This document shows positions 31,534-34,203 of a stretch of 64,000 bases of DNA, piece by piece. The notes beneath the pieces are model-generated. The model was not told the origin of the DNA and made no database searches. It saw only the letters and a program-made list of their open reading frames with translations. Position 1 is the stretch's first letter. Each line of letters begins with the position of its first letter. The DNA is taken from NCBI GenBank assembly GCA_027077795.1, contig JALWTT010000006.1, positions 372,001-436,000 on the forward strand, written 5' to 3'. The translations under genes were made by a program, and so were the position numbers. This DNA is from Thermotogaceae bacterium (GTDB taxonomy: Bacteria; Thermotogota; Thermotogae; Thermotogales; Thermotogaceae).

Positions 31534-32649
31534 TCATCTGGTGCTTTTAGGGTAAATTGTTTCCACGAATTCAAACCTTCCGTTCCTCACGATATCCACC
31601 ACCACTGGCTTGACGACGTTACCATTCTCGTCTATCGTTATTCTTCCAGTAACGCCTTGAAAGTTTCTGATCTTTCTGATGTTCTTGGCTATTTCTTCCG
31701 GATTAGAGCTTCTCGCCATCTCCATAGCTTTTAGAAGTACCATGTAAGCATCATAGGTAAGTGCGGCAATTGCTGAGGGGGTCTCCTTGTACTTTTTCTC
31801 ATACTCCGTGGTGAACCTCCTTGAGATCTCATTTGTAGCAACACTAGGGTGGTAATGAGTTGTGAAATACATCCCTTCAGCTGCCTTGCCTCCGATTTTG
31901 ATCAAATCCGGACATTCCACACCGTCCCCTGCGAGAAATTTCCCATTGAATCCCATCTCCCTGGCTTGCCGTACTATCAATGCCGCCTCCTTGCAGTATC
32001 CGGAGATGTATATGGTGTCGGCATCAAATTGCATGGCTGCGGCGATTTGAGTCGAAAAGTCTTTATCCACGCTTCTGTAAAACACTCTCAGTATTTTCAC
32101 CCCTTTTCCTCCAAGCTTTTGAAACTTTCTGGAGAAGAAGTTCGCAAGTCCTACGCTGTAATCCTGATCAACGTTGGCGAACACCACAATTCTTCGAGAT
32201 CCCATCTCCTCATAGGCGAATCTCGCAGCGGCAGCTCCTTGAAATGAATCCGTGAAACAGACCCTGTTTATATATTTCCAACTTTGGGTCACCAGTGGAT
32301 TGGTAGATGAAGGTGAGATCACAGGTATGTGTTTTTCCTCTGCTATAGGTGCCCCAGCTAGAGTGTTTCCGGAACTCATCGCTCCTATTATTGCAACAAC
32401 TCCTTTCTCGTATATGAGCTTTCGAAAGGCTTCAGCGGACTTGGATTTTTCACTCTTGTTATCAACAAGTATGAGTTGTATCTCTTTCCCTAGAACATCG
32501 TGCTTTTCCTCGTACGCCAGATTAAGGCTGTTCCAAGCTGCTTCACCGGCGTCCAGAAGACCTCCTGTCATCGGTAACACAACTCCGATTTTTATAACAG
32601 CCAGAGAAATCACAGAAAGCAGTGCAAAAAACACTGCGATGAATTTCAT
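31534..32649 (-). CDS. LivJ-type ABC substrate-binding protein
   Basis: 371-residue periplasmic binding protein of the branched-chain amino acid type (type I fold). A signal peptide (about 1-18) precedes IKIGVVLPMTGGLLDAGEAA, IGAMSSGNTLAGAPIAEE, IPVISPSSTNPLVTQ and DADTIYISGYCKEAALIVRQ. The ATG at 32649 has GGAGGTG 7 bases upstream; a nearer ATG falls inside the ribosome binding site and longer frames lack one. No LivHMGF genes are adjacent. It lies 46 bases after the AOR-like gene and could share its transcript. Confidence 0.88.
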   Translation of the reverse strand: MKFIAVFFALLSVISLAVIKIGVVLPMTGGLLDAGEAAWNSLNLAYEEKHDVLGKEIQLILVDNKSEKSKSAEAFRKLIYEKGVVAIIGAMSSGNTLAGAPIAEEKHIPVISPSSTNPLVTQSWKYINRVCFTDSFQGAAAARFAYEEMGSRRIVVFANVDQDYSVGLANFFSRKFQKLGGKGVKILRVFYRSVDKDFSTQIAAAMQFDADTIYISGYCKEAALIVRQAREMGFNGKFLAGDGVECPDLIKIGGKAAEGMYFTTHYHPSVATNEISRRFTTEYEKKYKETPSAIAALTYDAYMVLLKAMEMARSSNPEEIAKNIRKIRNFQGVTGRITIDENGNVVKPVVVDIVRNGRFEFVETIYPKSTR

Positions 32650-32695: not shown

Positions 32696-33703
32696 TCACT
32701 TGAGGCGGTTTCTAACAAACCCTCTTTCGTAGAGTTCATGGAGTTTCTCGATGTCTGATCTTTCTAGAAGCTTTGCCGCATCTTTACAGATTCCCAAGGA
32801 GTCCAGATAGTCTGACCACGGATCTAATCTCCTTATTGGATAATTCACATCGAAATCCATGCCATTTCCAGCTAGCTCTATGACCTTCTCAATAGGGAGA
32901 TCAAATTTCTTAGAGGCAAGATGCGCGCCGAAAAGGTCTACACCAAAATCGTTGGCGATCCTCACGATTCTTTCAGGGTTATCAACACCTTTTAGTATTC
33001 CAGAAATTCCTTTCTTCAGTTTTCCAACCATCGCCACGCAACTTATTGGGCAGCCATAACATGGATGTCCTACTTTTTCTGTCCTGAAAATTTCGGCCTT
33101 GAGTTTCTCACGAATCCCAGATGCAAATTTCAAGAAGGATTTATTCTCACATTTCAGCTGCTCAGGATAAAACACCAGAGCTTTTATTCCCATTTCATAG
33201 AGCTTTTCCCCTGCACCTTTCCCGAATGACCTGAAGTTCTCGGAAATCACAGATGATATTCCCACTCTTTTTTCCCCTGCTGGGCCAACTACTATGGATT
33301 TTCTTCCACGTCTTTCGAGCTTCTTCGAAACATCTGACACTTTTTCTCCGATAAAACCATCAGCTTTTTCAAAAAGCACCTGCGTTTTTCTGAACGCCAG
33401 GATGAATTTTTCTCTAGATTTCCCAACGATCGACACGGCATCTATTCTGTATCCCTTTATATAAGCCCCTATGAATCCCCCTATGGAGGATATATGAACC
33501 CCATGTCTGGTCTCCGTTCCGATGGAATACCGCCCGCCTGTAGGAGCCGGGGTACCAGTTAGAAGTCCAGGAGATATGATGAAGGACTCCGGATAGATCG
33601 AAAAAAGCTCCCTTGTCAAGGAGCTTCCACCTATGGAATCCAAGTTCAAATTTTCGATGTAGAAGGATCTTTTCTCAACATCCACTAAAAGAATCCTTTT
33701 CAA
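32696..33703 (-). CDS. Miniature aldehyde ferredoxin oxidoreductase (AOR) family protein
   Basis: 335 residues, about half the usual AOR length (roughly 600). The N-terminal domain is recognisable: SPGLLTGTPAPTGGRYSIGT, GYRIDAVSIVGK, GPAGEKRVG and GKGAGEKLYEMGIKALV. C215, C218 and C222 (HPCYGCPISC) match the three clustered 4Fe-4S ligands, and C306 in DSLGIC matches the fourth ligand and the second pterin motif DxxGLC. NDFGVD (251-256) resembles the first pterin motif. The two motifs are 50 residues apart instead of about 150, so the middle domain is cut down. A tungsten or molybdenum pterin enzyme is possible. The TTG start overlaps the rubrerythrin stop (TTGA). Confidence 0.78.
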   Translation of the reverse strand: MKRILLVDVEKRSFYIENLNLDSIGGSSLTRELFSIYPESFIISPGLLTGTPAPTGGRYSIGTETRHGVHISSIGGFIGAYIKGYRIDAVSIVGKSREKFILAFRKTQVLFEKADGFIGEKVSDVSKKLERRGRKSIVVGPAGEKRVGISSVISENFRSFGKGAGEKLYEMGIKALVFYPEQLKCENKSFLKFASGIREKLKAEIFRTEKVGHPCYGCPISCVAMVGKLKKGISGILKGVDNPERIVRIANDFGVDLFGAHLASKKFDLPIEKVIELAGNGMDFDVNYPIRRLDPWSDYLDSLGICKDAAKLLERSDIEKLHELYERGFVRNRLK

Positions 33704-34203
33704 AACTCTTTGAACGTCTCTCCTTTAGCACCGCATATTGGACATTTATCTGGAGCTTCACCTTCAACGGTGTATCCACATATTGGACATATGTATATCT
33801 TCTTATTTTCATAGTCCTCTCCTTTTTCCAGCTTCTCTTCTGCCCTCTTGTACATCTCAACATGAATCTTTTCAGCTTCAAGTGCAAATCTTGTACTTAT
33901 CTGAGCACCCCTTTCCCCCTGAATTTTCGCCGCTTCGTTGTAAATCGGGTACATTTCTTCCACCTCGAACGTTTCACCATCTATGGCTGTTCGGACATTT
34001 TTCACATCTTCTCCAATTCCACCAAGTTCCCTGAGGTGGTTCCTCGCATGAACATACTCCGCGTAGGCTATGGCCCTGAACAACCTGGCGAGATTTTTCC
34101 TTCCCCGCTTTTCCGCCTCTTCAGCGAATATGGTGTATCTCATGTGCGCCATGGATTCTCCGGCGAAGGCTTCCTCTAAAAACCTCTTTGTCATCTTTCT
34201 CAT
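33700..34203 (-). CDS. rbr: Rubrerythrin
   Basis: 167-residue non-haem iron peroxidase that removes hydrogen peroxide in anaerobes. The ferritin-like four-helix domain (1-130) carries the diiron Glu/His residues in FAEEAEKRG, AYAEYVHARNH and ALEAEKIHVEMY, and the C-terminal rubredoxin domain has CPICGYTVEGEAPDKCPIC. GAGGGAGGTGAGG precedes the ATG. It is the first gene of an operon with the short AOR homologue, which may exchange electrons through ferredoxin or rubredoxin (inference). Confidence 0.95.
   Translation of the reverse strand: MRKMTKRFLEEAFAGESMAHMRYTIFAEEAEKRGRKNLARLFRAIAYAEYVHARNHLRELGGIGEDVKNVRTAIDGETFEVEEMYPIYNEAAKIQGERGAQISTRFALEAEKIHVEMYKRAEEKLEKGEDYENKKIYICPICGYTVEGEAPDKCPICGAKGETFKEF

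Follow-up and report, generated by a model that had tools for sequence, protein, structure and literature searches.

A half-size aldehyde ferredoxin oxidoreductase-like protein of Thermotogota, conserved in hosts without MoaA and MoaC

Introduction

According to a 2025 review, the cofactor of all known members of the AOR/WOR family (AOR, aldehyde ferredoxin oxidoreductase) is a W- or Mo-bis-metallopterin (PMC12096430). The window (the whole stretch of 64,000 nucleotides analyzed here, from the genome of a Thermotogaceae bacterium, G000 below) encodes a protein of this family that has about half of the usual length, and the question is what such a protein can still do. An earlier note on this DNA had taken it for a functional miniature W/Mo-pterin enzyme keeping all cofactor motifs. 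What we find is a conserved AOR core, under selection and predicted to fold well, which is devoid of the aldehyde-type active site and resides in hosts without MoaA and MoaC; it is probably a cofactor- or electron-handling protein and not a miniature enzyme. A conserved half-size member in such hosts would either break the rule given in the review or represent a fold put to new use.

The Gene, Its Product and the Predicted Structure

The reading frame is intact, with no internal stops, and the product is a variant of the known AOR/WOR family (Table 1), as the earlier note had proposed. The N-terminal domain characteristic of the family, AFOR_N (IPR013983), is matched in all seven short forms described below. 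As to the C-terminal domains 2 and 3, demanded of AOR/WOR large subunits (PMC13328260), the corresponding AFOR_C model (PF01314/IPR001203) scores 14.3 bits in the window protein against a cut-off of 27, and this over residues 199-228. In a phmmer search of the PDB, the significant matches were AOR-family proteins only, the best of them 1aor (1.6e-15). The cluster ligands and both pterin-type motifs lie where they had previously been read, and the motif starts are indeed 50 residues apart vs 150 in full-length relatives, as exemplified by L008 (NQYGLD at 360, DAGGLC at 510).

Modeling, which the earlier note had suggested as a check, gave a confident, AOR-like predicted fold: the AlphaFold model of the window protein has a pLDDT of 91.2 and a pTM of 0.91 (84.2 and 0.87 for an Athalassotoga form), its best Foldseek match is 1aor_A (TM 0.76 by query length), and Foldseek matched no structure outside the AOR family at E up to 0.001.

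Table 1. Features of the locus in window coordinates.
Feature	Position	Strand	Remarks
Peripla_BP_6 substrate-binding protein (branched-chain amino acid type), downstream	31534..32649	minus	start 32649 set by ribosome-binding site
Half-size AOR-like protein	32696..33703	minus	335 aa, TTG start; same-span homologues in six other genomes
Second pterin-type motif DSLGIC with fourth cluster ligand C306, residues 301-306	32786..32803	minus	alignment
Shortened inter-motif linker, residues 257-300	32804..32935	minus	~100 residues gone, including the Tyr427 and His448 region (alignment)
First pterin-type motif NDFGVD, residues 251-256	32936..32953	minus	TIS that follows the motif in full-length enzymes is replaced
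CxxCxxxC cluster ligands C215, C218, C222	33038..33061	minus	invariant in 7 short and 21 full-length proteins
AFOR_N domain, residues 3-178	33170..33697	minus	Pfam PF02730, 9.8e-27
Arg58, equivalent of PfAOR Arg76 (GGR motif)	33530..33532	minus	alignment with 1aor; invariant in 7/7 short forms
Rubrerythrin, 167 aa	33700..34203	minus	overlaps short-AOR start; order conserved in genus only

Distribution, Selection and Origin

Our survey of 103 Thermotogota genomes revealed short full-span homologues in seven of them, the window's own included; the homologues of similar length which the earlier note had advised to look for are thus present in six further genomes. Two belong to the genus of the window (G012 and G013, 56-59% identity), two to the same family (G003 and G002, 45-47%), and two to another family (G021 and G022, about 25%, down to 24%), G021 being the cultured strain Athalassotoga saccharophila NAS-01. 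Most of the other AOR matches across the phylum are full-length proteins of about 570-700 aa. One of the proteins of near-full length, that of G036 (565 aa, L089:5432-7129), is devoid of the CxxCxxxC motif, and MoaA, MoaC and MoeA were not found in its genome. Outside Thermotogota, no members were detected in genome contigs, viral contigs or plasmids, the genome and viral scans having used two short peptide patterns only; the sole further match, L043, is spurious and sits at a frame of a carboxylase-like protein. We found no description of a short AOR in the literature, which is weak evidence of novelty, because open-licence papers only were searched.

The short form is under purifying selection, with dN/dS of about 0.15-0.2: 0.149 for the window protein and G012 (NG86) and 0.17-0.21 for G021 and G022, most of the remaining pairs being saturated at synonymous sites. 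A decaying pseudogene or an assembly artefact, for which the length alone speaks, is extremely improbable in view of these values, of the confident predicted fold, and of seven intact genes without internal stops from independent assemblies, one of them the closed genome of A. saccharophila (PMC7163026). The homologues of similar length rule out a frameshift, a sequencing error or a pseudogene, and here the earlier note, which had argued against decay, was right. We also rejected the possibility that the missing half is encoded by a separate gene, which the same note had named as a finding that would speak against its reading: no short-form host has an AFOR_C (PF01314) match over the cut-off, and the best one in these hosts (21.6 bits, G022) is the short gene itself.

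As for the origin, the five Thermotogaceae short forms constitute one clade (100/100). A branch supported at 79/94, which is not decisive, has all seven on the same side, and a tree in which the Athalassotoga forms join the full-length enzymes of their family is disfavored (AU p = 0.02); by pairwise identity, however, the Athalassotoga forms are nearer to full-length AORs. The short form may have arisen either once or twice.

Residues Retained and Lost

Eleven residues are invariant in all seven short forms: R58, C215, C218, C222, N251, D252, G254, D256, D301, G304 and C306. They include the four predicted [4Fe-4S] cysteines expected of AOR/WOR large subunits. At least 20 of the 21 full-length AORs agree in 106 alignment columns. 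The short forms lack 33 of these columns and share 62, of which 24 keep the conserved residue, all the cluster ligands included.

About 270 residues are gone in comparison with the full-length enzymes, including the walls of the substrate pocket and the second shell. In aldehyde-oxidizing members the tungsten second shell is made up of Thr243, Glu313, Tyr427 and His448 (PMC13328260, PMC12096430). The GPEYE, YDPR and HVRG segments, which by alignment would correspond to Glu313, Tyr427 and His448 in PfAOR numbering, are missing from the short forms shown in the alignment, as is the region ahead of the cysteines, where Thr243 lies; the conserved columns at all these places are gaps. The two pterin motifs retain their core residues, the TIS after the first one being lost, and Asn93, a main-chain Mg site, is substituted in five of the seven short forms. 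The statement that the protein keeps all cofactor motifs is therefore not supported, since the second-shell regions are deleted and the TIS after NDxGxD is lost.

With the large subunit of PfAOR (1AOR) the short form shares the N-terminal domain, the CxxCxxxC motif and the distal cysteine, the DxxGxD-like and DxxGxC motifs and the fold of the common part; it differs from it in length (335 vs ~600 aa), in the AFOR_C score, in the deleted second-shell regions and in the hosts without MoaA and MoaC. The BamB/YdhV branch likewise lacks the aldehyde-type second shell (PMC12096430), but has an extra cysteine metal ligand, and BamB is of full length. BamB (4z3w) is not especially close to the short form either (phmmer E 2.2e-6, weaker than 1aor).

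Cofactor Supply in the Hosts

MoaA and MoaC, the proteins that start the synthesis of the pterin cofactor, were absent from all seven hosts in genome searches which were positive in 11 of 14 control genomes and which found MoaC in 36 and MoaA in 33 Thermotogota genomes. Late steps of cofactor synthesis are kept: MoeA is present in six of the seven hosts (it is missing in G003), and MogA-like and MobA-like proteins are present where looked at. The pterin biosynthesis pathway that was to be looked for in the host thus lacks its known starting genes. FdhD is also absent from all seven. MoaE was not found in any of the 103 Thermotogota genomes searched, though 33-36 of them have MoaA or MoaC, which agrees with published work on T. 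thermarum, where the genes of molybdopterin synthase likewise escaped identification (PMC4148951). The search for PF12849 proteins, which covered the TupA family of transporter proteins, gave one match each in G021 and G022 and none in the five Thermotogaceae hosts, which therefore have no TupA of that family.

All seven hosts possess a DMSO-reductase-family gene (PF00384), and in G000 and G021 the encoded protein exceeds the NCBIfam cut-off for the formate dehydrogenase alpha subunit, with the active-site context CARLCHAS. Of the 14 genomes that have PF00384 and lack both MoaA and MoaC, seven have a short form, as against none of the 89 others; the Fisher test (p = 1.7e-7) takes no account of phylogeny, is descriptive only and overstates the association, because the co-occurrence comes from two lineages only. 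G023 and G024 have a PF00384 gene and neither MoaA nor MoaC, yet no short form.

The formate dehydrogenase alpha genes of the window's own genome (L097:4767-7568) and of Athalassotoga (L099:5793-8531), located in genomes without MoaA, MoaC and FdhD, are orphan molybdoenzymes. Such molybdoenzyme-family genes in hosts without a complete cofactor pathway have been surveyed as orphan molybdoproteins (PMC6147048); that survey covers homologues of molybdoenzyme families, and the case considered here is one AOR-family member cut down to its core.

Gene Neighborhood

The start of the short AOR gene overlaps the stop codon of the rubrerythrin gene (TTGA), and the order rubrerythrin, short AOR, Peripla_BP_6 is conserved in G000, G012 and G013. 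The coupling to rubrerythrin, from which a redox or peroxide role had been surmised, thus holds in the window and in these two relatives of one genus; it does not extend to the four other genomes, where the two genes are unlinked, and rubrerythrin as a general partner is rejected outside the genus. In G003 and G002 the short AOR precedes genes of a nucleotidyltransferase and an iron-dependent-repressor-like protein, and in G021 and G022 it overlaps the gene of a TPR protein. The neighbors differ among the lineages, and there is therefore no conserved partner. No formate dehydrogenase or cofactor genes adjoin the short forms in any of the seven genomes.

The start codon varies within the genus: the TTG at the rubrerythrin stop in the window (region 33685-33740) is CTA at the same position in G012 and CTG in G013, neither of them a usual start codon, and both sister species (L031:10420-10500 and L032:3010-3080) have an in-frame ATG upstream, inside the rubrerythrin gene.

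Possible Function

We favor, with a probability of about 0.38, a [4Fe-4S] protein of AOR descent, without catalytic activity, which would hold salvaged metallopterin or pass it on. An AOR/WOR large subunit would have been reduced to its cofactor-cradling core, i.e., the N-terminal domain, the [4Fe-4S] site and the two pterin-holding loops, and would have lost the helical parts which surround the substrate pocket and bear the acid-base residues. Such a protein should be incapable of aldehyde oxidation; it would carry a [4Fe-4S] cluster, could bind a scavenged metallopterin or its precursor without catalysis, and may either keep the bound cofactor or deliver it to the orphan formate dehydrogenase. 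Binding of pterin or of a cluster is predicted here from the motif residues, which are invariant down to 24% identity; this invariance, the deleted second-shell segments, the purifying selection, the confident model, the co-occurrence with PF00384 in genomes without MoaA and MoaC, and the retention of formate dehydrogenases and late cofactor steps are in favor of a holder. The replacement of N93 in five of seven forms, the loss of TIS, the neighborhoods, which lend no support, the lack of MoeA in G003, the restriction of the co-occurrence to two lineages and the absence of a short form from G023 and G024 speak against it. The wider scenario, in which hosts unable to start pterin synthesis, though keeping a formate dehydrogenase, recruited the cofactor-binding part of a tungsten enzyme as a holder of salvaged metallopterin without catalysis, perhaps twice independently, seems to us unlikely.

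The protein could also be a pterin-free [4Fe-4S] electron-transfer or sensor protein, its scaffold kept as a cluster holder after the loss of pterin synthesis and, in the genus of the window, perhaps passing electrons to rubrerythrin. We regard this as only slightly less probable than the holder: four invariant cysteines beside a lost second shell and a partly lost first pterin motif, the absence of MoaA and MoaC from all hosts and of TupA-type proteins from the five Thermotogaceae ones, and the rubrerythrin overlap in three genomes all suit it, but D301, G304, N251, G254, D256 and R58 are invariant at ~25% identity, although a protein that simply holds a cluster could do without them, and rubrerythrin is unlinked in four of the seven genomes. 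As to the active miniature W/Mo-bis-pterin enzyme of the earlier note, whose cofactor would be scavenged or made by an unfamiliar route, its conservation, selection and predicted folding stand, and so does the retention of the two pterin motifs and of every cluster ligand; judging by the formate dehydrogenases of G000 and G021, these cells seem to obtain some pterin cofactor, and YdhV and BamB are known members that also do without the second shell (PMC12096430). These two, however, have the extra ligand discussed above, the substrate-pocket walls and the second shell of the short form are deleted, and no host has MoaA or MoaC, which makes a working enzyme unlikely; the reading keeps some weight in view of the DMSO-reductase-family genes of all hosts and the MoeA of six of the seven.

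Moco carrier proteins are, to our knowledge, not homologous to the AOR fold. They may nevertheless offer an analogy to the favored metallopterin holder, as they bind and protect the pterin cofactor without catalysis (PMC9571131). The short form bears on the problem of orphan molybdoproteins, namely on the source of the cofactor for an apparently intact formate dehydrogenase (PMC6147048), and since one of its members comes from the cultured A. saccharophila NAS-01, the question is directly testable. In the window's own genome, which has neither MoaA nor MoaC, a MoeA fused to a PBP-like domain and flanked by MoaB/MogA-like genes is located a few kb from a gene of a 626-aa DMSO-reductase-family protein (L083:4666-7465 and L094:7211-9091).
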